A DNA stretch of 36,572 nt from Desulfobulbaceae bacterium (GTDB lineage Bacteria > Desulfobacterota > Desulfobulbia > Desulfobulbales > VMSU01). This document shows positions 1,338-36,572 of this stretch, piece after piece. The stretch lies in NCBI GenBank assembly GCA_015231515.1, contig JADGBM010000017.1, positions 1 through 36,572 of the forward strand. The letters are read 5' to 3'. A program made the translations under genes and the position numbers. Under the pieces are notes generated by a model. That model was not told the DNA's origin. It saw nothing but the letters and a program-made list of their open reading frames with translations, and did not search any database. Each line of letters starts with the position of its first letter. Position 1 is the stretch's first letter.

Positions 1338-2672
1338 CTACTCTACTTTTTGATCGTAGCGCTCTTGATAATATTTTTTCATCGCCTCAACTTTTTGAGG
1401 ATCAAACCCTTCAATAAACCAGACGTGGCGCGGATCACTCTTTATATACTTCGTGAGTATCTCTTCATAGACTTCAGGCTTTCCAGCCTTCTCGCTGGCC
1501 TCTTTTGCCTCCGGCAGCAACTCTGTATAGAAATGCTTTGCCACTTCATAAATACCGTGCCACCAGGCATAGTCAGGACCAGACATTGCGGCGCCGTGGC
1601 GGGCTCTTCTTCCTTCATGGTGCCACAACTCCCAATAAATCCAGTCGATCTTATCATCAAAGTTACTCTTCGAAATGACACCTTTTTCCATGAGCAGACT
1701 GCGTATCTCTTGGGCTGGAACAGCAAATTTACTGTTATACAGATCCACAAACTGATCCAGCTGACTATAGAACCCCGAAACAAAGGCCGGACCATGGCAC
1801 GATTGGCATACATCAGTCATGTTGCCCAGTTTCTTTTGCCAGTTATCAGTTCGTTTGGACACTGGAGCCCGCAGATCCCACGCCAGTCTCTCACCCACGT
1901 CGTGGGTAACCGGGAGATTTGCCGTTGCGCCCATGTGGCAGGTTGTGCAGGTTGGGGCATCATAATAATCCTGACCAGGCACCCACTTCGGATTGTCCAT
2001 GTTCAGCTCGTCTTCGTAGGCACGATATAAAATTCCATGCTTCGACTCTTCGTATACCTCTTTTTGTGGGTGATCAGGGCCAAGATGACATTTACCGCAA
2101 ACTTCCGGCTTGCGGGCCTGTGCCTTACTGAATCGATGCCGGGTATGACAGGCAGAACATGTTCCCTTTGATCCATCAGGATTGACGCGACCAATACCGG
2201 TATTAGGCCAGGTGGCAGGATCCAAAGTTCCATCTGCGTTTGTCTTAACAATTGAACCATGGCACTGGCGACAACCAACTGCAACAGCCGGTTCACCACC
2301 AATTGTTTGGCCCAAAAGCCCATCCTGAGTATTTAATATATCGCCAGCCTTAGCATGATGGCTTGCCTCCTGCTCAGCTGTTTCCTTGGGATGGCATTTA
2401 CCACAATCTCGAGGAGAAACAATGGAAGCCACAAAAAAACCGTTATGATCCATTGCATCGGGCTCTCCCTTCTGGGCGCCATGGCATTCATAACAACCGA
2501 CGCCAGCATTCCAATGGCTGCTTGACTGCCATTGATCAACCAGGCCTGGCATCATCTCCGTATGGCAATCAAGACATTTCTGCGTTTCAGCAGAAACTTT
2601 GGCTTGGGCGTCCATTGCTATGCCACTGGACAATAAAGCCACACCTAAAAAAACTCTCCACGCAGTTCGCAT
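1338..2672 (-). CDS. Octaheme c-type cytochrome, hydroxylamine oxidoreductase (HAO) family
   Basis: A 444-residue exported cytochrome. The signal peptide MRTAWRVFLGVALLSSGIAM is cleaved near AQA, before KVSAETQ. Eight CXXCH motifs follow: CLDCH, CYECH, CGKCH, CRQCH, CSACH, CGKCH, CTTCH and CQSCH. The C-terminal third is heme-free and helical, with a YAWWHGIYEVAKHFY segment typical of the HAO fold. I chose the second ATG because GGGAGGAAG lies just before it; an ATG five codons earlier has no such site. In HAO a tyrosine cross-linked to heme 4 favours oxidation, and relatives lacking it reduce nitrite or hydroxylamine. I cannot tell which form this is without alignment. The gene is divergent from hcp, so a periplasmic role in nitrite, NO or hydroxylamine turnover is the best inference. 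Its promoter may use the TTGACC at 2797-2792, but the spacing is poor. Confidence 0.9.
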   Translation of the reverse strand: MRTAWRVFLGVALLSSGIAMDAQAKVSAETQKCLDCHTEMMPGLVDQWQSSSHWNAGVGCYECHGAQKGEPDAMDHNGFFVASIVSPRDCGKCHPKETAEQEASHHAKAGDILNTQDGLLGQTIGGEPAVAVGCRQCHGSIVKTNADGTLDPATWPNTGIGRVNPDGSKGTCSACHTRHRFSKAQARKPEVCGKCHLGPDHPQKEVYEESKHGILYRAYEDELNMDNPKWVPGQDYYDAPTCTTCHMGATANLPVTHDVGERLAWDLRAPVSKRTDNWQKKLGNMTDVCQSCHGPAFVSGFYSQLDQFVDLYNSKFAVPAQEIRSLLMEKGVISKSNFDDKIDWIYWELWHHEGRRARHGAAMSGPDYAWWHGIYEVAKHFYTELLPEAKEASEKAGKPEVYEEILTKYIKSDPRHVWFIEGFDPQKVEAMKKYYQERYDQKVE

Positions 2673-2835
2673 TGTTCTTCCTCCCATTTCTGTTTTTAAT
2701 TTGCTTTCCTACAACCTTTGACCATACAATTAATTTAGCCAGTTTCTTTAGCACAAAGAGAAATTCTATCACGATGTTCACCTGTTGGGTCAAGCACTTT
2801 ATTCAAGCAATTAAAAATTAAAAAATTTTTTCAGT

Positions 2836-2885
2836 CTTGACCTAAGTCAAGGATCAGGCTGGCCTTCCCGTGTATAGTTTAATTG
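2836..2885 (+). promoter_or_regulatory. HcpR-type operator and hcp promoter
   Basis: CTTGACCTAAGTCAAG (2836-2851) is a perfect inverted repeat. It fits TTGAC-N4-GTCAA, the site reported for the Crp/Fnr-family regulator HcpR upstream of hcp in Desulfovibrio-like bacteria. A -10 box TATAGT lies at 2873-2878, putting the start near 2885. The operator centre (2843.5) is then about 41.5 bases upstream, the class II activator position, and there is no good -35 box. HcpR senses NO through heme. The hcpR gene is not in this window. Confidence 0.75.
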
Positions 2886-2985
2886 AACCTGCCGGAAAAA
2901 CCGTCATAGGAGCGCGGCAAAAGACCCATAGTCGTGCTCACATAAATAATTTTTTAATTGCACCATAACCCCAAAGGAGAAAATC

Positions 2986-4614
2986 ATGAATTGTAATCAA
3001 TGTGAACAAACAGCAAAAGGAACGGCATGCACCACAATCGGTGTCTGCGGAAAGTCAAACTCAACAGCTGCCTTACAGGATCTGCTTATTTACGCATCCC
3101 AAGGTATAGGTATTTATGCCACAGCGGGAAGGAAGGCTGGTGTCATCGACGCGCAGGTTAATAAATTTACCTGCGAAGCTATTTTTTCGACCCTGACCAA
3201 TGTAGACTTTGACGACGCACGCCTCACAGCACTTATTACTACAGCCATTACGCTCCGGGATGCGCTTAAGGCTAAAGTTGCCGCGGCCGGTGGCGATGTT
3301 TCCAGCACTGACGATGCTGCAACCTTTACACTTCCCACAACCGAGGCGGACATGATCAGTAAAGGGGAATCTGCCAACCTGCCTTCAAATAAGATTGAGA
3401 ATGCGGATATCTTGTCACTCAAGGAAATTCTTCTTTATGGACTTAAAGGGCTAGCTGCGTACACTGATCATGCCAGAATTATGGGCCAAGAAGATGACAC
3501 CGTTTACGCCTTTATCCATGAAGGGCTTGCCTCGCTTTCACGAACAGATATCGACCTGAATGGCTGGGTTGGCCTTGTCCTGAAATGCGGCGAAGTTAAC
3601 TTACGGGCAATGGAGCTTCTCGATGCTGGTAATACCGGCACCTACGGTCACCCTGTACCTACCGAGATTCCACTGGGCGCCAAAAAAGGTAAAGCCATTC
3701 TGGTTTCAGGACACGACTTAAAAGATCTTAACAACATCCTCCTCCAGACCAAAGGCAAAGGCATCAACGTTTATACCCATGGTGAGATGCTGCCCACCCA
3801 CGCCTACCCTGAGCTGAAGAAGCACGATCATTTTTACGGCCATTATGGTACTGCCTGGCAGAATCAGGCTAAAGAGTTCGCAGAGTTTCCTGGCGCAATT
3901 GTTATGACCACAAACTGCATTCAGAAACCCAAAGACAGCTATGTAGATAACATCTTTACAACAGGCATGGTGGCATGGCCAGGAGTAAAGCATCTTGGCG
4001 ATAAAGATTTCTCTCCGGCAATCAACCGGGCCCTTTCAATGGCTGGATTTACTGAGGACACCGACAAAGGTACCGTCATGGCTGGTTTTGGGCGTAACAC
4101 CGTATTATCGGTTGCCGACAAAGTAATCGCCGGCGTTAAAAACAAAGATATCCGCCATTTCTTCCTGGTTGGTGGTTGCGATGGAGCAAAGCCTGGCCGA
4201 AACTACTACACCGAATTTGTTGAGCAGGTGCCTTCAGACTGCATGATTTTGACCCTGGCCTGTGGCAAGTTCCGTTTCTTTGACAAAAAACTTGGTGATA
4301 TCGGCGGCATTCCTCGCCTGCTCGACGTTGGGCAGTGTAATGACGCCTACTCGGCCATTCAAATTGCCTCTGCCTTAGCCGGCGCCTTTGATTGCGGCGT
4401 TAACGATCTGCCCCTTTCATTCGTTCTTTCATGGTACGAACAAAAGGCTGTAGTAATTCTGCTGACGCTTTTTTATCTCGGAATCAAAGATATCCGACTC
4501 GGACCCAGTCTTCCAGCTTTCGTTACTCCAAACGTCCTGAACGTACTGGTTGAGAACTTTAACATCATGCCTATCACCACCCCGGAAGCTGATTTAGCTG
4601 CCATGCTAGGTTAA
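2986..4614 (+). CDS. hcp: Hybrid cluster protein (hydroxylamine reductase / NO reductase)
   Basis: A 542-residue cytoplasmic Fe-S protein. The N-terminal cysteines C3-x2-C6-x8-C15-x5-C21 are the class I pattern of strict anaerobes and hold the cubane cluster. The hybrid cluster ligands are all in order: His about 243, Glu 267 (YTHGEMLP), Cys 311 (TTNCIQK), Cys 398 (GGCDGAKPGR), Cys 426 (LACGKFRF), Cys 451 (GQCNDAYS), Glu 485 and Lys 487 (WYEQKAV). Hcp reduces hydroxylamine in vitro and is thought to remove NO in vivo. The start has a good AAAGGAG site. It is the first gene of a three-gene run with a zinc-ribbon protein and a ferredoxin, under the HcpR-type promoter. Length and motifs are complete. 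Confidence 0.97.
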   Translation: MNCNQCEQTAKGTACTTIGVCGKSNSTAALQDLLIYASQGIGIYATAGRKAGVIDAQVNKFTCEAIFSTLTNVDFDDARLTALITTAITLRDALKAKVAAAGGDVSSTDDAATFTLPTTEADMISKGESANLPSNKIENADILSLKEILLYGLKGLAAYTDHARIMGQEDDTVYAFIHEGLASLSRTDIDLNGWVGLVLKCGEVNLRAMELLDAGNTGTYGHPVPTEIPLGAKKGKAILVSGHDLKDLNNILLQTKGKGINVYTHGEMLPTHAYPELKKHDHFYGHYGTAWQNQAKEFAEFPGAIVMTTNCIQKPKDSYVDNIFTTGMVAWPGVKHLGDKDFSPAINRALSMAGFTEDTDKGTVMAGFGRNTVLSVADKVIAGVKNKDIRHFFLVGGCDGAKPGRNYYTEFVEQVPSDCMILTLACGKFRFFDKKLGDIGGIPRLLDVGQCNDAYSAIQIASALAGAFDCGVNDLPLSFVLSWYEQKAVVILLTLFYLGIKDIRLGPSLPAFVTPNVLNVLVENFNIMPITTPEADLAAMLG

Positions 4615-4635
4615 TTTGTAACTCGGAGACATACT

Positions 4636-5319
4636 ATGCAATGCCCAGGTCAAGACAGTCGCTATTGGGACAATGAGGCAATTTTTGAGGCAAATTGTTC
4701 TAAATGCGGAACTATAGTCGAGTTCTTCAAGGATGATAATAAGCGAAAATGCAGGCAATGCGGGAATGAGATGCTCAATCCCAAGATTGACTTCGGCTGC
4801 GCATCTTATTGCCCCTATGCAGAGCAATGCCTGGGCAGTCTGCCTCCGGAGATGATCGCTAAAAAACAGGAGCTGCTTATCGATCGTGTTGCCATTGAGT
4901 CAAAAAAGATGCTGGCTCAAGATTTTGCCAAAATTTCTTTAATGACCAAGGCAGCCCGATTTGCGAATACAATTATCAAAACAGAAGACGCGGCAAACAA
5001 GGCGGTTGTGATGATTGCAACCTATTTTCTGCCTTTTGCGACGACTCTCACTGAGGCAGAAAGTAAGGCCACCGCAATTGAACAGATCCGTTCCAGGCTT
5101 ACCTCGCTAGGTGCCAACCCCGGAATTGTTGACGAAGTCTGTACAATTCTCAGCGATCCACTGAAGGTTGCCAGCGACGGTAACATTAACCACTGCATTG
5201 TTCACGATAGCCTTATTCTCTCGCATATTGCCAGCAACCCTGAGGGAACAAACCGGCCCGCTTTGCTGACGAAAAGTGCCCAGGAACAGGCAAAACAACT
5301 CACCCAAAACGCGCCATAA
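4636..5319 (+). CDS. Zinc-ribbon, HD-like (phosphohydrolase-annotated) protein of the hcp operon
   Basis: 227 residues, 21 bases after hcp, with a CGGAG site before the ATG. The first 70 residues are cysteine-rich: CSKCG and CRQCG make a zinc ribbon or rubredoxin-like knuckle. A second cluster, CASYCPYAEQC, looks able to bind Fe-S or zinc. The rest is helical and resembles the HD-type 'phosphohydrolase' proteins that accompany hcp in Desulfovibrio-like genomes. I see no complete His-Asp metal motif, only a VHDS near residue 190, so hydrolase activity is doubtful. Its place between hcp and the ferredoxin suggests a part in assembling or feeding electrons to Hcp. The function is unknown. Confidence 0.7.
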   Translation: MQCPGQDSRYWDNEAIFEANCSKCGTIVEFFKDDNKRKCRQCGNEMLNPKIDFGCASYCPYAEQCLGSLPPEMIAKKQELLIDRVAIESKKMLAQDFAKISLMTKAARFANTIIKTEDAANKAVVMIATYFLPFATTLTEAESKATAIEQIRSRLTSLGANPGIVDEVCTILSDPLKVASDGNINHCIVHDSLILSHIASNPEGTNRPALLTKSAQEQAKQLTQNAP

Positions 5320-5378
5320 GCCTAGACTTCGAAGTGAGTTCTAAGGCATTAAAGTTCATAAGTTATGAGGTCAAAAAA

Positions 5379-6128
5379 ATGAAAGTATTACGAAAGATAA
5401 TTGAAATCGATGAAGATCTTTGTACCGGATGCGGCCAGTGCATTGTAGACTGCGCTGAAAGTGCCCTTGAGATTATCAATGGCAAAGCAAAAATTGTTGC
5501 CGATAAATACTGTGATGGCTTGGGCGCCTGTATGGCGGGATGCCCAACCGGGGCCCTAACCATTGTTGAGCGCGAAGCGGATGACTTTGACGAAGAGGCT
5601 GTCGAAGAACTTATTCAGAGTAAAAAAGCGACTGAAGCACCGAAAACTTCTGCATGTGGATGCCCATCAGCCCAGATACAAAACTTTAAGCCCCTTGGCC
5701 AGACTCCTTGCCAGCAGGCGAACCAGCCAAAGGTGCAAGCAAACTCAGACTCGGCCCTCAGCCACTGGCCGGTTCAGATCCGTCTCGTACCACCCAGTGC
5801 ACCTTTTCTGCAAAATGCCGATTTGCTGATTGCCGCAGATTGCGCGCCAATCGCTTATGCTGGATTTCATCAGGATCTCCTGCAAGGACGCGTTGTGCTC
5901 ATGGGCTGCCCCAAATTTGACGACGGTGAGTCCTATGTGCAAAAATTTACGGAGATTTTTTCTCAGGTAGCAGTAAAATCAGCAACCGTTGCCATTATGG
6001 AAGTACCGTGCTGCCAGACAATGCGACACATTGTCCAAAAAGCACTAACCAATTCCGGGAAATCTATTGCTGTTGATGTTGTGACCATCAGCACACAGGG
6101 CAGCGTTATCAAACGGGAGAAGCTCTAA
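5379..6128 (+). CDS. Hcp-associated ferredoxin, 4Fe-4S
   Basis: 249 residues. Residues about 14-24 carry CTGCGQCIVDC, a classical 4Fe-4S motif. A second motif, CDGLGACMAGCPTGAL, has a longer first spacing. A conserved-looking cysteine patch, SACGCPSAQ, follows at about 90. The C-terminal half, with MGCPKFDDGE and EVPCCQTMR, resembles the ferredoxin proteins found beside hcp in anaerobes. The ATG at 5379 has GAGGT before it; an upstream in-frame GTG would add 15 unlikely residues. It probably gives electrons to Hcp, as Hcr does in Escherichia coli. No clear terminator follows, so the transcript may run on past 6128. Confidence 0.85.
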   Translation: MKVLRKIIEIDEDLCTGCGQCIVDCAESALEIINGKAKIVADKYCDGLGACMAGCPTGALTIVEREADDFDEEAVEELIQSKKATEAPKTSACGCPSAQIQNFKPLGQTPCQQANQPKVQANSDSALSHWPVQIRLVPPSAPFLQNADLLIAADCAPIAYAGFHQDLLQGRVVLMGCPKFDDGESYVQKFTEIFSQVAVKSATVAIMEVPCCQTMRHIVQKALTNSGKSIAVDVVTISTQGSVIKREKL

Positions 6129-9298: not shown

Positions 9299-10492
9299 TT
9301 AACCCATCGCAACAACAGCTTGGCCGATCTTCGATCCTAACTCCTTACACTTGACAAAGTCTTCATCTTTCGGCACATTTTTGACCCGTAGACCTTCGTC
9401 AACCACTGAAATCTCCATCTCTTCCATTGCGGCATTCAGATGTTTCACAGCTTCTCCGCTCCAGCCAAATGAGCCAAAAGCAGCACCAATCTTACCCTTA
9501 GGTCGCAGCCCCTTGAGATACGTCAGGAAGTCTCCCATGCGTGGCAAGAAGCCGTTATTCAAGGTCGGCGAGCCAAAGACAAGCGCGCGAGAATCCAGCA
9601 CTTCTGTCATAATATCGCTCCGGTGGTTGACGGCCAAATCCAGCATTTTGACTGACACCCCCTCTCGGCCGATAGCACCACCGATGGCAACCGCCATTTT
9701 GGCTGTGCTTTTCCACATGGAGTCATAAATAACAAGGGCCTTCCGCTTCGTTTCCCGCCGACTCCACTTGTCGTAGGCAGCAAGAATATCAGCCGGATTA
9801 TTACGCCAAATCAAACCGTGATCCGGAGCAATCATGTCTATTTCAAGCCCTAACTCCCCAACTTTTTCCAGCAACTTCTGAACATTGGGGGAAAACAGAT
9901 GCAGGATATTGGCATAATACTTTGCGGCATGTGTCATCACCTCACCGATAGCCAGTTCATCAACATAACGCTCCGTCGAGGCAATATGCTGGCCAAAGGC
10001 ATCACTGGAAATCAGCAGCTTGTCTTCTGCAATATAGGAAAACATGCTGTCTGGCCAATGAAGCATTTTAGTTTCCAGGAAGGTCACAGTCTTCTTGCCC
10101 AAAGAAAGTGTGTCCCCGGACTTAACAACCTCAATAGGCCAATTGTTGGTATCAAAATGGGAGTGCAGTGCTTTTTCTCCCATAGGGGAACAAAATATTT
10201 TTTCAGGCTGCACCTCTTTAATGATATCCGGAAGGCAGCCTGAATGATCCATTTCAACGTGATTAACGATCAGATAATCAATTGACTTTGGATCAACCAA
10301 CTCCCTTACATGGTAAAGCAAATCTTCCTTGAACCCCGCCTTGACCGTATCAAAGAGGGCAACCTTCTCGTCCATAGCCAAAAAAGCGTTATAGGTCGTT
10401 CCTTTGTAGGTCGAGTAGCCGTGAAAATCACGTACATTCCAGTCCACCGCACCAACCCAATAAATATCCTTTTTAATCTCCACTTTGCCCAT
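9299..10492 (-). CDS. A-type flavodiiron protein (rubredoxin:oxygen / NO oxidoreductase)
   Basis: 397 residues from the ATG with AGGGGGTG before it. The N-terminal lactamase-like domain has the diiron ligands: HVEMDHSG (HxExDH), the His in MLHWPDSMF, the Asp in ISSDAFGQH, and the His in APDHGLIWR. The C-terminal flavodoxin domain starts at about 255 with ALVIYDSMWKSTAKMA, which binds FMN. There is no rubredoxin or flavin reductase extension, so it is class A and depends on an outside rubredoxin. These enzymes reduce oxygen to water or NO to N2O in anaerobes. It is the last gene of the perR-rbr-dfx-ftn run, separated from ftn by a hairpin. Confidence 0.95.
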   Translation of the reverse strand: MGKVEIKKDIYWVGAVDWNVRDFHGYSTYKGTTYNAFLAMDEKVALFDTVKAGFKEDLLYHVRELVDPKSIDYLIVNHVEMDHSGCLPDIIKEVQPEKIFCSPMGEKALHSHFDTNNWPIEVVKSGDTLSLGKKTVTFLETKMLHWPDSMFSYIAEDKLLISSDAFGQHIASTERYVDELAIGEVMTHAAKYYANILHLFSPNVQKLLEKVGELGLEIDMIAPDHGLIWRNNPADILAAYDKWSRRETKRKALVIYDSMWKSTAKMAVAIGGAIGREGVSVKMLDLAVNHRSDIMTEVLDSRALVFGSPTLNNGFLPRMGDFLTYLKGLRPKGKIGAAFGSFGWSGEAVKHLNAAMEEMEISVVDEGLRVKNVPKDEDFVKCKELGSKIGQAVVAMG

Positions 10493-10509
10493 TGCGACCA
10501 CCCCCTTAT

Positions 10510-12768: not shown

Positions 12769-14043
12769 CTATATCTCATCAAGCCCAAAGGCTTTACGAA
12801 TAAAGTCTAGTTTCATTTTTTGGCCCTGCCCTTCGACGTCATCCTTAAGAAAACGAATTGGGTTATGCATAATTTTATTTGATAATGATGCGGCCAACGC
12901 CTCAATTGATTTAACCTGTTTCGGGCTTAGTTCTTTAAGATTACTCAGTGTTTTTTGGAGCTCTGCTTCACGCAATTCATCTATTTTCTGCCGGAGTTCA
13001 ACAATAGTAGGGGTGAGCTCCATGCTCTCAAGCCACTTGCTAAACTTAAGGGTCTCCTCCTGAACAATCCTTTCAGCTCGGTCAGCTTCCTTGTTGCGCC
13101 CAGACTTATTGACCTCCACAACATCTTTTAAGTTGTCAATGTCGTACAGGTAGACGTTATCAAGATCATTAAGCTTAGGATCAAGATCCCGGGGTACAGC
13201 AATGTCGATCAGAAATAAGGGGCTGTTCATCCGCTGCCGCATGATAGGTTTAACGTCATCACACAATAGCACAAGATCCGTCGCCCCTGTGGAACTAATC
13301 AAAATATCGACACTTTCAAGTTCTGAAACCAGTTCCGTTAACGATACCGCCTTGCCATTAAACCGCTTAGCAAGCTTTACAGCATTTTCAAGTGTTCTAT
13401 TGGCAACAACAACTTCTGCAATTCCTTGGGCGATAAGATGCTCGGCGGCCAACTCGGCCATCTCGCCTGCGCCCACCAGCATAACTTTCTTGTTTTCCAG
13501 ACTGCCAAATATTTTTTTGGCCAATTGCACAGCGGCATAGCTAATGGAGACAGCACTGCCACCAATGTTGGTTTCTGTGCGAATACGCTTGGCCACCGAA
13601 AACGATTTATTGATAAATTTGTTAAGTATGGGCCCCAGGCTTTTCAGTTCTGTTGCGTCTCGGTAGGCGCTTTTCAGCTGACCAAGAATTTGGGGTTCAC
13701 CTACGATCATTGAGTCCAGACTACAGGCAACTCGAAACAGATGGGTTACTGCCTCAACACCCTGGTGGACATAACTATATTTTTGAGCCTCAACATCATC
13801 CAAACCGCTCGCTGCAAAAAGTAACTTACGTACTCCCACAGCCGTTTCTTCAGGGTTATCGCTGGCACAGATAACCTCAACACGGTTGCAGGTTCCAAGG
13901 AAACAGCATTCACGATTACCAGGCAGCTTTTTAATCGCGACCACTGGATTCTCACAGTTCCCAGAAAAGGCAAGTTTTTCACGCACTGCAACAGGCGCAA
14001 CCTTATGATTGACGCCAAAAACAAGTAGTTTATCAGCCTGCAT
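12769..14043 (-). CDS. hemA: Glutamyl-tRNA reductase
   Basis: 424 residues from the ATG with GGGAGG upstream; it overlaps the end of ccsA by 11 bases. The N-terminal catalytic domain has GVNHKVAPVAVREKLAF and FLGTCNRVEV with the active-site Cys. The NADPH domain has KVMLVGAGEMAELAAEHL, and a helical dimerisation domain closes the protein. It makes glutamate-1-semialdehyde from charged tRNA-Glu, the first step of tetrapyrrole synthesis. Its partner hemL is 11 kb away on the same strand. The operon order MBL, siroheme synthase, ccsA, hemA suggests a shared heme/siroheme supply unit. Confidence 0.96.
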   Translation of the reverse strand: MQADKLLVFGVNHKVAPVAVREKLAFSGNCENPVVAIKKLPGNRECCFLGTCNRVEVICASDNPEETAVGVRKLLFAASGLDDVEAQKYSYVHQGVEAVTHLFRVACSLDSMIVGEPQILGQLKSAYRDATELKSLGPILNKFINKSFSVAKRIRTETNIGGSAVSISYAAVQLAKKIFGSLENKKVMLVGAGEMAELAAEHLIAQGIAEVVVANRTLENAVKLAKRFNGKAVSLTELVSELESVDILISSTGATDLVLLCDDVKPIMRQRMNSPLFLIDIAVPRDLDPKLNDLDNVYLYDIDNLKDVVEVNKSGRNKEADRAERIVQEETLKFSKWLESMELTPTIVELRQKIDELREAELQKTLSNLKELSPKQVKSIEALAASLSNKIMHNPIRFLKDDVEGQGQKMKLDFIRKAFGLDEI

Positions 14044-14848
14044 AGGAATGTAAACCTCCCAACAGGTACGTAACACCCCACAGCGTAAAAAGGCAGGCAC
14101 CAAACCCTATCATGGACATAATAGCCGCCCTTCTCCGCCGCCAGCCCATGGTAAAGCGAAAGTGCAGCAAGGCCGCATAGATAAACCAGGTCACAAGTGA
14201 CCATGTCTCCTTGGGATCCCACTGCCAATAAGATCCCCAAGCCTGTTTTGCCCATATTGAGCCTGTGATAATACCCAGTGTAAGGAGCGGAAAGCCAATT
14301 GCCAAACAGTGGTGATTTAAATTGTCGAGCGCCTCAAGCGAAGGAAGCCGACTGTAAAAGAGTCCAAAACGCCTGGCCTTAATCTCCCGCTCCTGAAGCA
14401 GATACATCACCCCGCCGCAAAAGCCCAAGGCCAAAAAGGCATTGGCCAGGAGGGCAATGGAGGCATGAACCGGCAACCACTTACTTTGCAAAGCCGGTGG
14501 CAAGGGAATAGCCTGCTGGGAAGACATTGAGGCAATAACCATAAGCAGGGTAATACACACGCTCACAAAGGTGCCAAAATTTTTAACTCGATACCGCCAC
14601 CGGAAGATGAGAAAGCCCCAGGTCATTGCCCACGCGAAAAAGGAGACCGACTCGTGCATGCTGGTAATAGGTGTATGCCCCACCTCATAATACCGAGTGA
14701 TCAAGGTAATGGTATGAAAAATACCGCCCATCAAGAGAATCAATCTGGCGGTGGCTCGTATTTTTTTGTCTTGATTAGCAAAATAGAGAAGGTACATCAC
14801 CGCCGAGGCGATATAGGTAAGAAAAGTTATTTTAAATATTAAGGGCAT
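14033..14848 (-). CDS. Cytochrome c assembly protein CcsA/HemX family
   Basis: 271 residues with about eight membrane spans. The tryptophan-rich heme-handling motif WGSYWQWDPKETWSL lies at about 195-210, flanked by His residues. CcsA of System II brings heme to the outer face of the membrane for attachment to CXXCH motifs. The related HemX sits in hemA operons and affects HemA level. With hemA overlapping it, either role is possible. The window's large cytochromes make a heme-delivery role relevant. An AAAAAGGAG site precedes the ATG. Upstream 14849-15008 holds no gene. Confidence 0.88.
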   Translation of the reverse strand: MPLIFKITFLTYIASAVMYLLYFANQDKKIRATARLILLMGGIFHTITLITRYYEVGHTPITSMHESVSFFAWAMTWGFLIFRWRYRVKNFGTFVSVCITLLMVIASMSSQQAIPLPPALQSKWLPVHASIALLANAFLALGFCGGVMYLLQEREIKARRFGLFYSRLPSLEALDNLNHHCLAIGFPLLTLGIITGSIWAKQAWGSYWQWDPKETWSLVTWFIYAALLHFRFTMGWRRRRAAIMSMIGFGACLFTLWGVTYLLGGLHSYAG

Positions 14849-15008
14849 TTACCAGACTCCTTTTTAAGAACTGTTAATTCAAACAGCCATTAAGATCTTG
14901 CAGAAAAAACCATTAAGCGTAGCACCTTATTGCTGGATCAGCAAATAGGCCCACGTTTGAATCGTATACACCCTAAGGATACAAGAAACCTAATGGCATG
15001 ACAAGTAG

Positions 15009-15686
15009 TCAAGATTGCAATCGTTGCTGTATTGCTTCAACCGTATTCACTGTCAATTGCTTGCCAATACAATGATTTACAATATCAATAACTGCTCCAG
15101 AATTTCCTTCTTCAATATGCTTAAGGATGTCACTTCCCAGAATAGCATTAAACATACGTTCGTTTTCCTGCTGGGGCAAGTTAGTTTGTATCACTTCCGG
15201 CCTGACGATGCCCATAATATCATTAAGCACGGTATAGTTTTCGTCAAACTCCTGTTCCAGTTTTTTCCTCAGCATTTTGGCAAGAGCAGGGCTCTTACCC
15301 CCAGTTGAAACCGAGATCGAAAGGGAGCCCCGCTGAACTCTGGCAGGCAGAATAAAATTGCATTTCTCCGGAACATCGGCAACATTAAGCAATGTGTTCA
15401 ACTGCCGGGCATCATGGAACACTTCTTCCTGGGCACCCTGATCATTAGTGGCGGCAATGACCAGAAAAGCACCGACGATATCACCCTTGCTATATTTTTT
15501 TTCGTGCCAGATAATTTTGCCCTGAGCATGCAAGGCAGCAAGCTCTGCATGTAAAATCGGACTGACAACACTCACCGAGGCATTGCATTCTAAAAGCCCC
15601 CTGACCTTTCGCAGCGCAACTCGTCCCCCACCCACCACAACACACTCCCGACCTTTGATATCAAGATATGCCGGATAGAACATCAT
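15009..15686 (-). CDS. Precorrin-2 dehydrogenase / sirohydrochlorin ferrochelatase (siroheme synthase N-domain)
   Basis: 225 residues. The NAD-binding start is VVVGGGRVALRKVRGLLECN. FILPARVQRGSLSISVSTGG and SPALAKMLRKKLEQEF mark the Met8/CysG N-terminal fold. It oxidises precorrin-2 and inserts iron to give siroheme, the cofactor of sulfite and nitrite reductases. There is no methyltransferase domain, unlike enterobacterial CysG. The ATG overlaps the upstream stop (ATGA), so it is translationally coupled to the MBL gene. Confidence 0.92.
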   Translation of the reverse strand: MMFYPAYLDIKGRECVVVGGGRVALRKVRGLLECNASVSVVSPILHAELAALHAQGKIIWHEKKYSKGDIVGAFLVIAATNDQGAQEEVFHDARQLNTLLNVADVPEKCNFILPARVQRGSLSISVSTGGKSPALAKMLRKKLEQEFDENYTVLNDIMGIVRPEVIQTNLPQQENERMFNAILGSDILKHIEEGNSGAVIDIVNHCIGKQLTVNTVEAIQQRLQS

Positions 15687-27510: not shown

Positions 27511-28560
27511 ATGCCAGAAGATCAAAGCACGAAAAGTAACCAGTTACTGCTCGGAATCGACTTCGGAACCTCACGAACCGCCGTAATGTCGAATCGCGGA
27601 TACAAAAAAATCACCCGATCCATTGTCGGTTACCCAAAGGATATCATCGGCATTAAGTTTCTCGGCAAGGCACAGGTTTTTGGCGATGAAGCCCTAAAGA
27701 ACCGTTCCGCTCTAACCCTGTATCATCCACTCGAAGATGGCGTAGTTCGTGAAGCCAGTGAGAAGGATTACAGTGCCGCCCTTGAGCTGCTCAAACACGT
27801 AATTACTGAAGCCAAGCAAGGTGAGGACATTCCGGTTTCAGGAATTATCGGCGTACCCTCTCGCGCCTCAATAATGAACAAGGAACTTCTTTTAAAAATT
27901 GCCCATGAAGTCATGACCACTGCCCTTGTTGTCTCTGAGCCTTTCATGGTGGCCTACCACATGAATAAGCTGAACAACTGCATTGTTGTCGACATAGGCG
28001 CTGGTACTGTCGACATATGTGGAGTCAAAGGTTCCATTCCCGGCCCCAAAGACCAGGTAACACTCTTAAAGGGTGGCGACTACATCGACGAACGCCTTGA
28101 GTCAGCTATTCAACAACGATATTTCGATGTTCAGATTACCCGCAACCTTGTTCGAACAATTAAAGAACAGCATGCCTTTGTCGGCGTTTCCCCCTCCGGA
28201 CCGATTAAAGCAACCCTACGCATCGATGGCAAACCTGCCGAATATGATATCACTGAAGAGATACGCAGCGTATGCGAGAGCATAGTGCCCGATATCGTCG
28301 AAAATATTATTACTGTAATGAAAAGTTACGACCCGGAAAATCAACAGGAAGCATTAAACAATATCTACCTTGCAGGCGGAGGCTCAAACATCAAGGGCCT
28401 TGCCTCGATGATTGCCGCTCGTTTGAAAGATTACGGCGAAGTGACGGTTCTCTGCGTTGACGACCCCGACTTCTCCGGCTGTGGTGGCGCCCTAAAACTT
28501 GCATTGGATCTCCCCCCGGAACATTGGGATAAAATTGGCTTTGCCGGCTCGATTGGCTGA
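27511..28560 (+). CDS. MamK-like actin ATPase (filament-forming)
   Basis: 349 residues, about the length of MamK (roughly 350). The actin fold is complete: phosphate-1 loop LLGIDFGTSRTAVMS, phosphate-2 loop VVDIGAGTVDICGVKG, and adenosine loop YLAGGGSNIKGL. Segments such as RSIVGYPKDIIG, VSEPFMVAYHMNKLNN and KGGDYIDERLESAI match magnetosome filament protein MamK more closely than MreB, from memory of the MamK sequence. MamK polymerises with ATP and positions magnetosomes. No other magnetosome gene is nearby. The next gene encodes a membrane-anchored coiled-coil protein, which may be its partner. GGGGAAG precedes the ATG. A ParM- or Alfa-type actin is less likely. Confidence 0.85.
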   Translation: MPEDQSTKSNQLLLGIDFGTSRTAVMSNRGYKKITRSIVGYPKDIIGIKFLGKAQVFGDEALKNRSALTLYHPLEDGVVREASEKDYSAALELLKHVITEAKQGEDIPVSGIIGVPSRASIMNKELLLKIAHEVMTTALVVSEPFMVAYHMNKLNNCIVVDIGAGTVDICGVKGSIPGPKDQVTLLKGGDYIDERLESAIQQRYFDVQITRNLVRTIKEQHAFVGVSPSGPIKATLRIDGKPAEYDITEEIRSVCESIVPDIVENIITVMKSYDPENQQEALNNIYLAGGGSNIKGLASMIAARLKDYGEVTVLCVDDPDFSGCGGALKLALDLPPEHWDKIGFAGSIG

Positions 28561-28632: not shown

Positions 28633-29136
28633 ATGACAACCCTACTTTATATTTTACTTGGCATCTCGGTTGGCATTGGCTGTACACTGATTTTTTTACA
28701 GGAAAGATTCACCCGAGAGCGCCGCCGTATTTTGGCAACCAGTAAGGCAGAGCGGGAGAAAGCCACCAGGCAGCTTTTGGAGCTTGACGAAAAATGGGAG
28801 GCAGAGTGTGAGCAGTACCGGCAAGAGTTGGCCGCAGCGCAGACTGAAGCTGCAGGTGACAACGCCGCTGATTCCGAGCAGAGAATCCTAGAAAAAGAGT
28901 CCGAAATAGCCGCCCTAACGAGCGAAAACCAGCAGCTCCAGAAATCAAACGCGGCCCTGCAAGACCAACTCACCGAAGCGCAAAGCGAATCTGACTACCT
29001 CAAAGGGGAAATCAAGCGCCTGGAAAAAGAAAAAAGTCAGATCCCTGCCGACGACTTCATTGTCCTTTCCCCGTCTGGGGGGCATCTTTTACCGGGGTCA
29101 ATCGCCCGCGCCCTCATGAAAAGAACGAACGACTAA
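28633..29136 (+). CDS. Membrane-anchored coiled-coil protein, possible filament partner
   Basis: 167 residues. Residues 4-22 (LLYILLGISVGIGCTLIFL) form one membrane helix; the stretch from about 25 to 135 is a highly charged coiled coil (for example KEREKATR-like heptads, ENQQLQKSNAALQDQ). The C-terminal tail, DDFIVLSPSGGHLLPGS, is distinctive and non-coiled. It lies 72 bases after the MamK-like gene, on the same strand, with no terminator between. No strong ribosome site is seen. A role in tethering filaments to the membrane is inference. I do not recognise the family. Confidence 0.7.
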   Translation: MTTLLYILLGISVGIGCTLIFLQERFTRERRRILATSKAEREKATRQLLELDEKWEAECEQYRQELAAAQTEAAGDNAADSEQRILEKESEIAALTSENQQLQKSNAALQDQLTEAQSESDYLKGEIKRLEKEKSQIPADDFIVLSPSGGHLLPGSIARALMKRTND

Positions 29137-29182: not shown

Positions 29183-30280
29183 CTATCGCCCTATAAACTC
29201 AATCTCCAGGTTTTTCAGAACCTCACCCAGGTTGGACTTGCTATGCTTAATGCCAATTTTATTGCGTATTTTATCGCGATGAAACTCGACACCACGCGTA
29301 GTAAGATTCAGCAGGTCAGCAATGCGCTTGGTACTTTTGCCCTGCTTGATCAGATTCGCTATATGAATCTCCTTGGGAGTCAGACGAAAGTACTTATAGG
29401 CAAGACCCTGCATAAAAGGGGCAACAATCTCACCAACATTTGATTCGATTATATTAGCGCAAACAAGGGCCTCTTCATTAAGGTTACACTCTTTAAGTTT
29501 TTCAATATAGGGATTGATCATCTCATTAACACTGAAGAGAATCTTATCCTGCACTTCCTTTTGGTCTCGTTCGTTTTTCTTGACCATTTGCTGCAGGGCA
29601 ATGGTTGTGCCCTCTAAATCATTGGCTTTGGTGGTCACCTCTTCTTGAGCTTTGATCAGGCGGCGCTCGGAATTTTGCAGCTTAACAATAGACTCTTCAA
29701 GTGCGGCATTTATCAAGCGCAGATCGGCAGTCTGCTCCTCCACTTTCTGACTCAGCTCCTTATTAATATGCAATATACGCTTTTCAGCGACCCACTTCGC
29801 TCCGAGTGCGGCACCAAACTGCTGGACCTCCTGGGTGTGAAATGGTTTTTGAATATAAAGAAGTTTATCAAGTGGCCGGACCCGTGCTGAGATTTCCTCC
29901 GGATCAATATCAGAATAGGCAGTAACAATAACTATATTAATAAGGGGGTCAAGACTTCTTATTTGCTCAGCGGCCCAAACGCCATCGGGACCAGGCGGCA
30001 TTCTAACATCAAGAAAGACCATGGCAAACGGCTGGTCATTGTTCAATGATTCTCGTACAGCCTGCAGCGCATCTTTGGCCTGCTGCCGACATGTTATGTG
30101 ATACGAAAACAAACTTGCCGGATTCGCCGCTGTCCCGTAAAGCTTCGCTTGCAAATCCTGTATCCGCATATCAGATTCACTCTCTTGAGAAAGACCAAAA
30201 ATACTCTTATAGGAATCAAGCACACCTTCTTCATCGTCAACAACCAGTATTCTAATCTCTTTTTGGGCCTCATTTTCCAT
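29183..30280 (-). CDS. Response regulator with LuxR-type DNA-binding domain
   Basis: 365 residues from the ATG with GGGAG about eight bases before it; ATGs two and six codons earlier are possible. The receiver domain has RILVVDDEEG and MVFLDVRMPPGPDG with the phospho-Asp. A long coiled coil (about 185-255) follows, then a LuxR helix-turn-helix (LTPKEIHIANLIKQGKSTKR, LNLTTRGVEFHRDKIRNK). There is no AAA+ module, so it does not activate sigma-54 promoters. It is divergent from the histidine kinase at 30547, a likely partner. Confidence 0.9.
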   Translation of the reverse strand: MENEAQKEIRILVVDDEEGVLDSYKSIFGLSQESESDMRIQDLQAKLYGTAANPASLFSYHITCRQQAKDALQAVRESLNNDQPFAMVFLDVRMPPGPDGVWAAEQIRSLDPLINIVIVTAYSDIDPEEISARVRPLDKLLYIQKPFHTQEVQQFGAALGAKWVAEKRILHINKELSQKVEEQTADLRLINAALEESIVKLQNSERRLIKAQEEVTTKANDLEGTTIALQQMVKKNERDQKEVQDKILFSVNEMINPYIEKLKECNLNEEALVCANIIESNVGEIVAPFMQGLAYKYFRLTPKEIHIANLIKQGKSTKRIADLLNLTTRGVEFHRDKIRNKIGIKHSKSNLGEVLKNLEIEFIGR

Positions 30281-30546
30281 TACCATACTCCCGGGCATCG
30301 CCTCAATCTAGCTGCAGCCTAATTACCTGCCAAACAAGTCATATCTCTATTATTCCAAGCACCGTGGTGAGTGTAATGATATTTTCATCAATCATCAAAT
30401 GATTTTTCGCATAAAATCTTACGGTGGTACACGCATTTGTTTTTTGCTACTATATAAAAGACCCAGCACATTGTATCTTCAGCAACAACTTTATTTTCAT
30501 TACTGCTGGCTCTTGTCGTCTATTTATCACCCCAGGAGAATAAACC

Positions 30547-32169
30547 TTGATACGAACCAAAGTCATACTTGTTTTTACCACCAGCCTTTTCCTGATAGCC
30601 GGCCTGCTTGGAATTCACATTTTTGAAACATCAAAAGAGGTCTACTTTCACAAAAGACTCGACAGTATGCATCATGAATATATTTTAGTCCTGAATATTA
30701 AACATGCCGTTAGCAGCCAACTGAAAGAGGCGACGACTGGTGTGGTCTTTGGTTTTTCACCCGAGCAGCTCAAACGATATGAGAAAACTAAAATCCTGGC
30801 AGACAGCTCAATTAAAGATCTCATGACCACCATTTCAATAGAACTCGACTATATTCTTTCTGACGAAAAGGAAAATGAAGAAGGCGAAAGCCGAAAGGCA
30901 CTAGAGCTGCGTGATAAGTACACAGAAATCGATACACAACTTGAAAAAATACAACATATTGCCGATCAAGGAACAAAGAGCAGGCACGCCCAGGAAGCTG
31001 TCCTGGCCAACGTTGACGGCCTATACCGCTCCTTTGCATCCCTCATTGACGAGTGGATAGAGCACGAGCAAGAAGAGTTGCAAAGTCTAGAAAACACCTT
31101 CCGGGCCATGACAAACAGAAACACCATAATCCTCGTTGTCGGGTCAATTATCACTCTCGTCTTTGCCATGACCATGTCCCTTTCAATCATCCTGCTCATC
31201 ATTGACCCCCGCATGAAAGAACTGATTAGCGGCACAGAACGGGTCTCCCAAGGCGACTTAAGCACCCCGATAGCTCTGGCGGGCAATGATGAGTTCACTG
31301 CACTCTCCAAGGCCTTTAATCAGATGATGCTGCGGCTCCAGAGTTCCCAGAAGCAACTGCTGGAACAATCATATTATTCAGGTATGGCAGAAATGGTTTC
31401 CGGCATTCTCCACAATATTAAGAACGCATTTTCACCATTTATTGTTGATACAGAAATAATCTACCACCATGTGAAAAGCATTAAGCTGTTCCAATTTATT
31501 CCAACCCTTAACGAGTTACGCGATGACACCATCGACTCAGCCCGTAAAAATGACCTGCTCGACCTAAGCGGCCTTCTCATCGAAAACTCCCAGGATGCCT
31601 TAAAAAAGATACGGGACAAGCTGGCAGTAATGCAAAATAGAGCTACCCTTATCGAACGAATTATTGAGGAGCAAAGCCAACTGGCTAACTCCCAAAGGCT
31701 CATTGAAGACGTCTCCCTGCAGGAACTCTTCCAGGACTCATTGTCACTTATCAAAACCAGCCTTCTGGAAGAAGTCTCTGTCACTGTTTCAGACAACGTA
31801 CAATTGATCGGTACTATCAAGACACAGAGAATTATCCTGCTCCAAGTGTGTAAAAATGTAATTCTTAATTCGATCGAGTCCATTTTACGCTACGGAAACA
31901 AAGTCGGCAAAGTCGAGATTAACGCTGAACTCTTCCATGACAGCAGTCAGGAGATGGTACACATAACTGTCTCTGACAATGGCGAGGGCATTAAGCATGA
32001 AAGCCTTCAAGAGATTTTCCAGCGAGGCATCTCCAGCAAATCAACACGCTCCGGCCTGGGTTTACACTGGTGCGCCAATAGTATCGCAGCCCTTCAAGGA
32101 CAGATCTATGCCGAAAGTAACGGCCCGGGCCAAGGCGCACAACTCCATATCCTCTTGAAGCGCAGCTGA
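30547..32169 (+). CDS. Membrane sensor histidine kinase with HAMP domain
   Basis: 540 residues with a TTG start, preceded by AGGAG nine bases away. Two membrane helices (about 8-25 and 196-220) flank a periplasmic or extracytoplasmic helical sensor region. A HAMP linker follows. The H-box is in GMAEMVSGILHNIKNAFSPF, where the His is phosphorylated. The N box is VCKNVILNSIES, with G1 DNGEGI and G2 RSGLGLHWCANS. It probably pairs with the divergent regulator. The signal is unknown. Its nearest downstream neighbour is the giant cytochrome. Confidence 0.92.
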   Translation: MIRTKVILVFTTSLFLIAGLLGIHIFETSKEVYFHKRLDSMHHEYILVLNIKHAVSSQLKEATTGVVFGFSPEQLKRYEKTKILADSSIKDLMTTISIELDYILSDEKENEEGESRKALELRDKYTEIDTQLEKIQHIADQGTKSRHAQEAVLANVDGLYRSFASLIDEWIEHEQEELQSLENTFRAMTNRNTIILVVGSIITLVFAMTMSLSIILLIIDPRMKELISGTERVSQGDLSTPIALAGNDEFTALSKAFNQMMLRLQSSQKQLLEQSYYSGMAEMVSGILHNIKNAFSPFIVDTEIIYHHVKSIKLFQFIPTLNELRDDTIDSARKNDLLDLSGLLIENSQDALKKIRDKLAVMQNRATLIERIIEEQSQLANSQRLIEDVSLQELFQDSLSLIKTSLLEEVSVTVSDNVQLIGTIKTQRIILLQVCKNVILNSIESILRYGNKVGKVEINAELFHDSSQEMVHITVSDNGEGIKHESLQEIFQRGISSKSTRSGLGLHWCANSIAALQGQIYAESNGPGQGAQLHILLKRS

Positions 32170-32683: not shown

Positions 32684-35600
32684 ATGAAAAAGTCTATTGC
32701 CTTTGCCATAGTGTGTTTTTCGGTGCTCTTCGCCAGTAACGTTTACTCAAATGACGTTACCGACGCTCCCCACAACAACAGTTTCAACATTGAATGTCGC
32801 GACTGTCATCAATACTCTCTCTGGTGGAGCTATTCTCCGGCTAGAGGCACAGCTCAAGACTTCTTTGCCGGCCTCTCCGAAGAGATCTGCCTCCGCTGTC
32901 ATGATGGTAGCCCTACTCAGGTGCATAAAGGCACCATGGCACCCCATACTTCAGCTACTCTCTCCAACGGTTATGGAACGTGGAACACAAGCTGCGTTGA
33001 CTGCCACTCGCCACACTATCAGCAACAGCTCGAATGGCGCACCAATTCAACCGACAAGGCGAAACTCTACCTGGTTACGGGAACTATCTCAGCACCCTAT
33101 GATACCAACATAAACATTAGGCTCAACATTCCGGAGTCAGGCAAGACAACAATTACCTATGACACCCCATTCACATATAATGATATACGATGGTCTATTC
33201 CGTACGACAGCAATACGGATACAATCACCTGGGAGAACAAAAATAACGCTATTCCAGGCCGAGGTCTCATTTTTGTCCATGACACTGAAAATGCTGTCGA
33301 CAGCTATGTCATTGATTCAACCAATGCCAGCAACCAAATAGTCATAAATGGACTTCTGGATCTCACAAAAATCAACACCACAACTAAACCATCATCGAAC
33401 ACCTTTGGCCTGATTTACGGCCAGTTGATCAAACAAAACTTTATTTTGCAGGACGGTACAGAGGCTCCAGTTAAATTTTTTGATCCAGTCGGTGGCTTTG
33501 TTGAGGAAGATGCAACTGGATCCGGTCTTACAACTGGTATCTGTCAGGTTTGTCACACAAAAACCAGTAACCCGACGACACTTGCCCCACGTTTCCGCAA
33601 CGATGGTACTTTCCCTGCTGGTGGTCATAGTGCTTATGTTGCCGGCGACTGTTCCGACTGCCATATCCGAGAAACAGGCTTCACCCCCAGTGGCCTTGAC
33701 CACTCCACTTCCGGCAACTCAGCAGTCCTTGACACACCGTTATGCGTCAACTGTCACGCACACGCCGCCAACAATCCCATGGGTGTTCATGGCAGCGAAT
33801 GCATCAAATGTCATGAATTAGCCAGCCCTGAAGTCGGCAACTCTACCCTTAAAACCGCGTATGGCTCTGCAACTCGTATAAGCGCAGGTGACTGCGTTTG
33901 GTGTCATGAAGGATATTTTGATGGCCACGACAGAGGTTCTGTTGTGGGCGGAGTACTTGACCACTCCAGCAGCGTAGCTCTGAGCATCGACCAAAGCACA
34001 ACAATACTCAACTGTAGCGGTTGTCATCCGGCATCCACAACGCCATTCTCTTCGACTGGCGAAGTGCACTCTGTCAACGGTTGTGCCACATGCCACGATA
34101 CCGCGATTAATGGCGGATTAATTGCGCCTGCAGTTGCCGGCGGTGGTGAGTGCGCAATATGCCATGGCGCTTTCAACAGTCATGATCACGGGACGGATAC
34201 AGGAATTACCCATTGGCTCAGTTACGACCCTGCGCGTGACATTTCAGACAGCAATACCTGCGATTTCTGTCACCCCAGCCAGCTTGGCGATTGGAATGCC
34301 ATTCTTGAAACACACGTCAGCGGCGGTCAATGCGGTACCTGCCACAACTCAACTCGAACAAACGGCGCCTCTACCTCAGTTAACCCTGCCTATAACTCTG
34401 TTGCTAATGCCATTGCTCAGTCCGGCGCAACAAACTCAATTACTTTAAATTGTATTGACTGTCACTGGGATAGACAGCTTAACCATTTTGTTGACCACAG
34501 CACGTTTGTCACCGGTGGAACAACAAATTGTGTAACCAACTGTCATGACTCCTCGTTTACCGCTTCTCCAACTGACCCTAAACTCCATGATGATTGCACT
34601 ATCTGCCATACCGGCACCACAAAACCAGTAACACTCATCTCACTTGCTGTTGGTCACGCCACAACAGATATCGGTTTCGGAAACCCGAACATCTGCACCA
34701 CATGTCATTCCACACCAACGTTCTGGGACCACATCAAAGGCGGCGATCATCTTGGCCAAGTACGAGCTACTATTAATAACACCTGCGAAACATGCCATGT
34801 CAGCACTGGCGATTTGGTCATTGAACCAACCCTTCACAATGGTGGCTGCGGAATATGTCATGACTTAGGGCGAGGCGGCATATTAAGAGCAGGGTATACT
34901 GGCCGTGGCTCAGCTCTCACTGGAGCTGGAGACTGTGCGAGCTGCCACACTGACCATGCAGCAGACTTTTTCTTCCATGTTAAACCGAATCATAACACTA
35001 AAATTCTGCCTACGGCTAAATGCGTTGCCTGCCACAACGAAGCTGACATGGTAGATGGAGTCCATGCGACTAACAGCTGCCTTACCTGTCACACCGCCGT
35101 CACCGGTGTAATGCGAGGCGGAGCAAATGGCGACGCCAGTAACGGATCCGGGGATTGCGCCTTCTGCCATCCATCAAGAGATGCTAATTTCTTTACCGGA
35201 CATACTAACCCGGTTGACCACAACCTCGCCAACGTTTTGGCCACTCCAAACTGTGTTAGTACTGGTTGTCACACTGGAGCCAGACGCGCTGAAGACATAC
35301 ACATAACCAACAGCTGCGACACGTGCCACAACCCAGCCTCAGGCGCATTAAGATCAGGAATAAATGGCAACGCTACCGGCGGAGCCGGAACCTGTGCAAG
35401 CTGCCACGCCACCAGGGCGGCCAACTACAAAAGCCACAACACCCCCTCTCATGCCGCCCTTACCAGTTCACCTGAGTGTACAAGCTGTCACAGCACGGCG
35501 ATGATTACTGGCGTCCATAAAGGTACATGTACGAACTGCCATGTAGACTTGACTGGTGTTCTTGTCGGCAGTGCCGCCACCGGCGCAGGTAGTTGTACTT

Positions 35601-36572
35601 TCTGTCATTCCACCATCGACACAGTAATTCCTCACCAGGCAGATCATGATGCAATTGTCTTCGAAGCCTACGAGCAGCCTGTAACCAACTTGCCCCTATT
35701 ACCTGCATGTACCAACTGCCACGGCGCTGGGAATGTATCTATCACCACAGCCAACGAACATATTGGCTTTCTTACCAGAAATGCTACCATTATTGATTGT
35801 GATTCCTGCCATAAACCAGCATTTCAAACCATCATCAATGCCGGCAGAAGCAGCAACCCATCACCGCGCCCAATTGAATGCCGGGAATGCCATGGTGGTA
35901 GATTGGCCAACCCAGATCCACTGATTGTTGATCCACAAACAGAACATCCTTCTGATGTTATGCCGCATGATCCTGAGACCCCTCAAACCCTCGCAACAAC
36001 AACAACTTGTGTAACCTGCCACTATGAAACCGACTTGTCTATTGGTATCCATAAGCTCTGCGACACCTGCCATGATCAAACAACCTTTGCCCTGATTGGC
36101 ACTGCTGCTACAGCCGTTGGTGCTGGTGAGACTGCCCCATTTACCTGTGCAGAATGCCATACCAGTCATGTTGCCGATTTCTTTACAGGACACTCCTCCC
36201 CTGGCACTCACATGTTTAAGGGCTTTGTCACTACAACTACTGACAACACCTGTGAAGAGTGCCATACTGCAGCAAATACCATCGCAGACCAGAAGATGCA
36301 TAAAGGTCTCTGTGAAAGTTGCCATACGCTTGTTACCGGGGAGTTAAAGGGCAGTGCTGCCGGCAAATTCGACGGCGGTGACTGTACGATTTGTCACACA
36401 ACCTACGCCACCGACTTCTACAATCACATAACGCCTAATCATGAAGTAAGTGCCTTTGTCACGTATGATGCAACATGTCAGAACTGTCATCATACCGGTC
36501 ATGTTATGACCAGTCCATATACCCATAACTCCAATTTCACCACCAGAATTGGTTGTGAGCTGTGCCATGCAG
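32684..36572 (+). CDS. Giant secreted multiheme c-type cytochrome, C-terminus beyond window
   Basis: 1,296 residues are visible with no stop. The signal peptide is MKKSIAFAIVCFSVLFASN and ends near VYS. I count 38 CXXCH motifs, plus CVTNCH (CX3CH, residues 616-621) and CVSTGCH (CX4CH, 857-863), which may bind further hemes. Three motifs lie before residue 109. A heme-free, probably beta-rich stretch spans about 109-286, then motifs follow every 15-40 residues. From about residue 750 the pattern repeats in three-heme units of about 68-78 residues (GxGDCAxCH...CxxCH...CxTCH). Relatives serve long-range electron transfer outside the cell in Geobacter and Desulfobacterota. It lies behind a sigma-54 promoter; RBS AAAGAGAAA is weak. 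Confidence 0.93.
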   Translation, partial: MKKSIAFAIVCFSVLFASNVYSNDVTDAPHNNSFNIECRDCHQYSLWWSYSPARGTAQDFFAGLSEEICLRCHDGSPTQVHKGTMAPHTSATLSNGYGTWNTSCVDCHSPHYQQQLEWRTNSTDKAKLYLVTGTISAPYDTNINIRLNIPESGKTTITYDTPFTYNDIRWSIPYDSNTDTITWENKNNAIPGRGLIFVHDTENAVDSYVIDSTNASNQIVINGLLDLTKINTTTKPSSNTFGLIYGQLIKQNFILQDGTEAPVKFFDPVGGFVEEDATGSGLTTGICQVCHTKTSNPTTLAPRFRNDGTFPAGGHSAYVAGDCSDCHIRETGFTPSGLDHSTSGNSAVLDTPLCVNCHAHAANNPMGVHGSECIKCHELASPEVGNSTLKTAYGSATRISAGDCVWCHEGYFDGHDRGSVVGGVLDHSSSVALSIDQSTTILNCSGCHPASTTPFSSTGEVHSVNGCATCHDTAINGGLIAPAVAGGGECAICHGAFNSHDHGTDTGITHWLSYDPARDISDSNTCDFCHPSQLGDWNAILETHVSGGQCGTCHNSTRTNGASTSVNPAYNSVANAIAQSGATNSITLNCIDCHWDRQLNHFVDHSTFVTGGTTNCVTNCHDSSFTASPTDPKLHDDCTICHTGTTKPVTLISLAVGHATTDIGFGNPNICTTCHSTPTFWDHIKGGDHLGQVRATINNTCETCHVSTGDLVIEPTLHNGGCGICHDLGRGGILRAGYTGRGSALTGAGDCASCHTDHAADFFFHVKPNHNTKILPTAKCVACHNEADMVDGVHATNSCLTCHTAVTGVMRGGANGDASNGSGDCAFCHPSRDANFFTGHTNPVDHNLANVLATPNCVSTGCHTGARRAEDIHITNSCDTCHNPASGALRSGINGNATGGAGTCASCHATRAANYKSHNTPSHAALTSSPECTSCHSTAMITGVHKGTCTNCHVDLTGVLVGSAATGAGSCTFCHSTIDTVIPHQADHDAIVFEAYEQPVTNLPLLPACTNCHGAGNVSITTANEHIGFLTRNATIIDCDSCHKPAFQTIINAGRSSNPSPRPIECRECHGGRLANPDPLIVDPQTEHPSDVMPHDPETPQTLATTTTCVTCHYETDLSIGIHKLCDTCHDQTTFALIGTAATAVGAGETAPFTCAECHTSHVADFFTGHSSPGTHMFKGFVTTTTDNTCEECHTAANTIADQKMHKGLCESCHTLVTGELKGSAAGKFDGGDCTICHTTYATDFYNHITPNHEVSAFVTYDATCQNCHHTGHVMTSPYTHNSNFTTRIGCELCHA

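Follow-up and report, generated by a model that had tools for sequence, protein, structure and literature searches.

A giant multihaem c-type cytochrome gene at a contig edge in a Desulfobulbaceae genome, and a related frame with about 256 CXXCH motifs

The window analysed here is a 36,572-nucleotide stretch of DNA from a Desulfobulbaceae bacterium, comprising the first 36572 of the 39413 bases in contig C17; the draft genome to which this contig belongs measures 3.4 Mb and is 95% complete. The window ends inside the 5' part of a gene for a giant multihaem c-type cytochrome (32684..36571, + strand), which runs past a scaffold gap and off the contig. The product is probably a secreted, bis-histidine multihaem electron carrier whose single chain acts in extracellular electron transfer as a wire of haems or as a store of charge. 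That multihaem c-type cytochromes take part in extracellular electron transfer is known; what is new is the size.

Within the window, the open frame (32684-36571) encodes 1296 residues with 38 CXXCH motifs, confirming the count given in the original prediction, whereas shuffled versions of these residues (2000 in all) held 0.34 motifs on average and at most 3. No CXXC in the frame lacked the following histidine, and the variants outside this pattern were a CX3CH at residue 616 and a CX4CH at residue 857. The large number of motifs (38 in the window, at least 66 on the contig), together with a signal peptide, identifies the product as a multihaem c-type cytochrome, in which each motif would carry a putative covalent haem; cytochrome c assembly proteins are encoded in the same genome. 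A further 50 histidines lie outside the 38 motifs of the window part and are available as second axial ligands, as would be expected for bis-histidine ligation. Pfam Cytochrome_C7 matched 13 stretches of the protein (134 bits against a cut-off of 24.8), and weak similarity to MtrC/MtrF domain II/IV (PF22113) was seen in five stretches.

The N-terminus reads as a Sec-type signal peptide (residues 1-22, MKKSIAFAIVCFSVLFASNVYS; 32684..32749, + strand), a layout common to all complete relatives, and the export proposed in the original prediction was thus borne out. It is followed by a trihaem cluster (residues 27-111; 32762..33016, + strand) whose DAPH...CXXCH motifs at residues 38, 69 and 104 and additional histidines at residues 30, 88 and 111 form invariant columns in alignments of 12 and of 44 relatives. 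Residues 131-262 (33074..33469, + strand) make up a haem-free beta domain with the signature FGLIYGQLI..VKFFDP, delimited from the alignments and an AlphaFold2 model; the model, in which pLDDT was about 66-94 for residues 131-250 except for values of 50-57 at residues 171-190, predicts a small beta-barrel. The remainder (residues 287-1296; 33542..36571, + strand) is a haem array of 35 CXXCH motifs, spaced on average about 29 residues apart, also marked out by Pfam matches, and contains a module (residues 322-655; 33647..34648, + strand) of which a relative from another genome, G002, has about 12 tandem copies. A domain search of the window protein found no NHL domain, leaving the suggested beta-propeller without support.

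Searches by structure yielded little. Foldseek returned no significant match to the N-terminal model (best E 0.055), and VIA-align returned only unrelated small beta-barrels at Z of at most 6.2, which was uninformative. Comparison of the window protein with all PDB chains by phmmer gave no match at E <= 0.001. An N-terminal profile weakly matched 6r2q_A (E 1.7e-4), listed as cystathionine beta-synthase and presumably the MtrCAB complex; this match was not used, nor was the structure model of the repeat module, which was poor (mean pLDDT 47).

A scaffold gap of 149 N begins immediately after the window (C17:36573-36721). Beyond it, the same frame was found to continue without a stop to the contig end at 39413, giving a contig-level gene with no fewer than 66 CXXCH motifs and at least 2243 amino acids, of which 50 are X, as expected from the earlier claim that more haems lie past the edge. 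The part after the gap aligned at 60% identity with a continuous gene of G002 over residues 1-884 of 897, with 28 of 28 CXXCH motifs kept, and the part before the gap matched the same gene further upstream at 48% identity, with 33 of 38 CXXCH motifs and 39 of 50 other histidines kept. Across the gap, blastp aligned residues 7-2230 of the window protein with residues 5-2027 of the G002 protein at 39% identity over 2325 columns, which take in the undetermined (X) residues of the gap. As this match is colinear and to a single continuous gene, both sides of the gap belong to one gene, with a gap of about the right size, and a stop or frameshift just beyond the window, the outcome that would have undone the original prediction, is strongly argued against.

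The contig tail did not overlap with any other contig of its genome, and searches of the rest of that genome for a tandem array or C-terminus like those of G002 found neither, although one of them lacked a positive control. The window's own protein, whose full size we infer, may therefore be far shorter than its relative. At 66 or more haems it is among the largest multihaem cytochromes, but no record as it stands. The original prediction had held that few described cytochromes carry as many motifs as the window part; 38 is not exceptional in itself, given published maxima that include 45, 86 and 113 haems, but the gene carries at least 66 motifs and its colinear relative about 256.

That relative comes from the same family as the window genome and a different genus. 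On contig C173 of G002, a gap-free 25.4-kb frame encodes 8474 amino acids with 252 CXXCH motifs, sharing its signal peptide and N-terminal domain with the window gene and remaining open at the contig end. Contig C27 overlaps this end by exactly 141 nt and supplies a stop; since such an overlap is typical of neighbour contigs in the assembly graph, the join is plausible, and it would give a protein of 8941 amino acids with 256 CXXCH motifs and a mass of 931 kDa without haem. The pairing with C27 is likely but not certain, similar ends being present also on C206 and C149; the 252 motifs lie inside one contig and are independent of it. At residues about 2095-5956 the protein consists of about 12 tandem modules of ~325 amino acids with 10-12 CXXCH motifs each, and at the level of sequence the haem chain of this relative grew by tandem modules. 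Invariant histidines outside the motifs are about as numerous in these modules as the haem motifs themselves, which is what bis-histidine ligation needs.

A second copy in G002 is split between C73 (58 CXXCH) and C176 (173 CXXCH). When joined in order, the two parts were colinear with the first copy for about 7375 residues, about 69% of which were identical; the shared stretch holds 239 CXXCH motifs, of which all 231 that aligned were conserved and the other eight fell in gaps. As two separately assembled copies share the order of the array, an assembly artefact is unlikely. The end of C43 and the start of C206 in G002 also lie inside similar short CXXCH repeats and may be one further large cytochrome, and phage-like genes (endolysin-, holin- and tail-like by eye) were noted upstream of the 252-motif gene at C173 6582-10923.

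Further evidence of constraint was seen in a truncated paralogue on contig C89 of the window genome itself, which is 71% identical to the window protein (dN 0.21, dS saturated at about 3.9) and keeps 22 of 23 CXXCH motifs and 31 of 32 other histidines. By these sequence measures, the window gene is under purifying selection; the selection figures are limited to this close paralogue because dS between the window gene and G002 is saturated.

The N-terminal trihaem cluster and haem-free beta domain together define an unnamed family (DAPHN..CXXCH..YSLWW / FGLIYGQLI / VKFFDP), and the window protein possesses both, as the two alignments (12 and 44 sequences) show. Among named genomes, 43 family loci were recovered, mainly from MAGs named Desulfobulbaceae, Desulfobacterales and Deltaproteobacteria with a few Nitrospirae, suggesting that the hosts are Desulfobulbales-like. 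One member lies on QZJK01000006.1, from a MAG named Candidatus Parcubacteria, a contig that is probably misbinned. The number of CXXCH motifs per member ranges from about 5 to 256. Of 258 genomes of the order, the window genome and G002 alone had matches to the giant-specific part, and a query with the array against 395 genomes of the phylum gave nothing further, with the window genome among its matches and G002 not. The C-terminal tails of family members are of Calx-beta, Ig-like or parallel-beta-helix-like type, and giant-type relatives bear Ig/cadherin-like and Calx-beta domains, which suggests a surface position. Elsewhere in the window genome (G000), two tandem family members (at least 26 and 23 CXXCH) were located at C90 1-6709, one of them ending in a bacterial surface Ig-like domain, and a further multihaem cytochrome cluster (24, 7, 7, 5 and 13 CXXCH), one of whose products belongs to the family, was located at C10 7863-19189.

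Directly upstream of the giant gene lies a histidine kinase with HAMP and HATPase domains (30547..32169, + strand), with a divergent response regulator carrying a LuxR/GerE DNA-binding domain (29183..30298, - strand) as its partner. As homologues of the pair (35% and 47% identical) lie beside a giant-type cytochrome gene on C149 of G002, at its 3' end, the two are candidate regulators. An MreB/actin-like protein (PF06723, 78 bits; 27511-28560, + strand) and a small predicted coiled-coil protein (28633-29136, + strand) are encoded further upstream.

A route of export was suggested by the C89 paralogue, which adjoins a type II secretion operon. This operon (C89 3848-12382, - strand) lies upstream of the paralogue on the same strand, with a small opposite-strand gene between them, and encodes GspF, pseudopilins, GspK, a GspL-like protein, GspM, a weak GspC and a GspD secretin. 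In Shewanella, type II secretion has been implicated in the surface delivery of MtrC and OmcA (PMC1974784). The giant cytochrome is probably exported to the surface by such a system. No outer-membrane beta-barrel or porin-cytochrome partner was encoded among ten scanned neighbours, the downstream side being off the contig.

Genes for HemA, a CcsB-like c-type cytochrome assembly protein and a protein with a siroheme synthase N-terminal domain form one row in the window (12769-15686, - strand). The original prediction had regarded the haem and siroheme genes as fitting the demand of the giant cytochrome; they lie 17-20 kb away and look like a housekeeping hemA cluster, and were rejected as support. 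A separate eight-CXXCH cytochrome, weakly similar to a hydrazine dehydrogenase/HAO model, adjoins a hydroxylamine reductase (hybrid-cluster protein) in the window (1338-2687, - strand, and 2986-4614, + strand), and a flavorubredoxin-like protein is encoded 5 kb on (9299-10501, - strand); this group looks like one for the handling of nitrogen oxides.

Taken as an electron carrier, the protein would be exported by the Sec pathway and would bind haem covalently, one per CXXCH every 28-34 residues, each with a histidine as second axial ligand, so as to form a long row of closely spaced redox centres on a single polypeptide. Following export to the surface by type II secretion, electrons reaching the periplasm could hop along this chain, which would pass them to minerals, partner cells or other surface cytochromes or take them up from these, and which could also store charge. 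Haem loading, bis-histidine ligation, the outer-surface location, the direction of electron flow and an extended, wire-like shape are all inferred. As the module model was poor, the shape rests on haem density and on the solved precedents GSU1996 and OmcS. The earlier suggestion of a periplasmic or extracellular conduit fits the sequence and now leans towards the extracellular side, given the surface domains of relatives and the type II secretion operon beside the paralogue; the conduit itself still stands as a proposal.

The strongest competing possibility, though a tentative one, is that the protein acts as an electron capacitor, periplasmic or surface-bound, that holds charge and does not pass current over distance. 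The very high haem count per chain would agree with this, as would the many similar modules, which suit storage as well as transfer, and the 12-haem GSU1996 of Geobacter, likewise a row of haems on a single chain, has been discussed as a capacitor (PMC10138318). Storage, however, needs no surface domains, yet the giant-type relatives have Ig/cadherin-like and Calx-beta domains, and storage and conduction are not exclusive. It is rather unlikely that the protein is a haem-bearing surface adhesin, made mainly for contact with minerals or partner cells and handing electrons over locally through haem clusters on its stalk. The Calx-beta, Ig-like and parallel-beta-helix-like tails and the wide variation in CXXCH number across the family are in keeping with such a role, but the haem array of the giants runs nearly unbroken for thousands of residues, and its motifs are the best conserved part. 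A catalytic multihaem reductase fed by a giant array is improbable: MtrC-type proteins reduce minerals directly and the similarity to MtrC/MtrF domain II/IV recalls them, but no recognisable catalytic domain was found and the surplus of conserved histidines suggests six-coordinate haems. Finally, an assembly artefact or decaying gene, in which the gap joins two genes or the array of the relative is misassembled, might be suspected from draft MAGs, a 149-N gap and a contig that ends inside the gene, but is mostly refuted already by the end-to-end colinearity across the gap, the purifying selection and the two separately assembled G002 paralogues, and we consider it very improbable.

With a secreted electron carrier as the preferred reading, the dimensions of the chain can be considered. 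OmcS rises by 48 Å per six haems (PMC6584659). By simple arithmetic at this 8 Å per haem, 66 haems would extend to about 53 nm and 256 to about 205 nm. That the window protein and the G002 giant are orthologues, and that covalent single-molecule wires of about 250 haems are made, is possible but doubtful; were it true, a ~250-haem chain could span about 0.2 micrometre when extended and could serve in place of polymerised cytochrome filaments. The cytochrome wires known so far either are assembled from small subunits as polymers or consist of one chain with no more than 113 haems, and a whole molecular wire may be made as one protein by the bacteria of the window genome and G002. If so, the haem loading of such a chain, its export across two membranes and the replacement of a filament by a covalent wire would become open to testing, and an uncultured Desulfobulbales-like family would probably contribute to extracellular electron transfer in sediments, at vents and in groundwater.

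In comparison with known systems, the closest in scale are archaeal. A 2020 paper gave 113 as the highest recorded haem number, in an MHC/S-layer protein of 'Ca. Methanoperedens manganireducens' (PMC7082337), and a 2022 survey of ANME archaea described an 86-haem protein of ANME-2c (PMC9012536). No cytochrome with more than 113 haems was found in a search of open-access papers. The archaeal proteins are likewise giant single-chain multihaem cytochromes thought to export electrons; they are, however, fused to S-layer domains, whereas the present family is bacterial, with its own N-terminal domain, ~325-amino-acid modules and up to 256 CXXCH motifs, and no S-layer domain was found in the window part or in the 3' parts of the G002 giants. 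The Geobacter 'nanowire' proteins GSU1996 and GSU2210 (12 and 27 haems) resemble it in having c7-like units fused in one chain with haems in a row, but carry 5-20 times fewer haems and are described as periplasmic; TIGR04257 (nanowire_3heme) was not among the NCBIfam matches of the window protein at E <= 1. Shared with the decahaem MtrC and OmcA of Shewanella are the MtrC/MtrF II/IV matches, the alternation of a beta domain with haem domains and probable type II secretion export, but the window gene is many times larger, and the protein scored far below the cut-off of the OmcA/MtrC family (TIGR03507; 18.6 against 209.3 bits) and below that of the DmsE decahaem family (TIGR03508; 61 against 192.2 bits). 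The OmcS, OmcE and OmcZ filaments likewise present a long chain of closely spaced haems and a possible conductor, but are polymerised from many small subunits, whereas here the repeat is covalent. By description, SEEP-SRB1 and other Desulfobacterota syntrophs also have unusually large multihaem cytochromes linked to extracellular electron transfer (PMC5539420). The largest member of the present family, with about 256 motifs in one open frame, would exceed the recorded maximum more than twofold; that record would belong to the G002 relative, and possibly, by colinearity, to the window gene.
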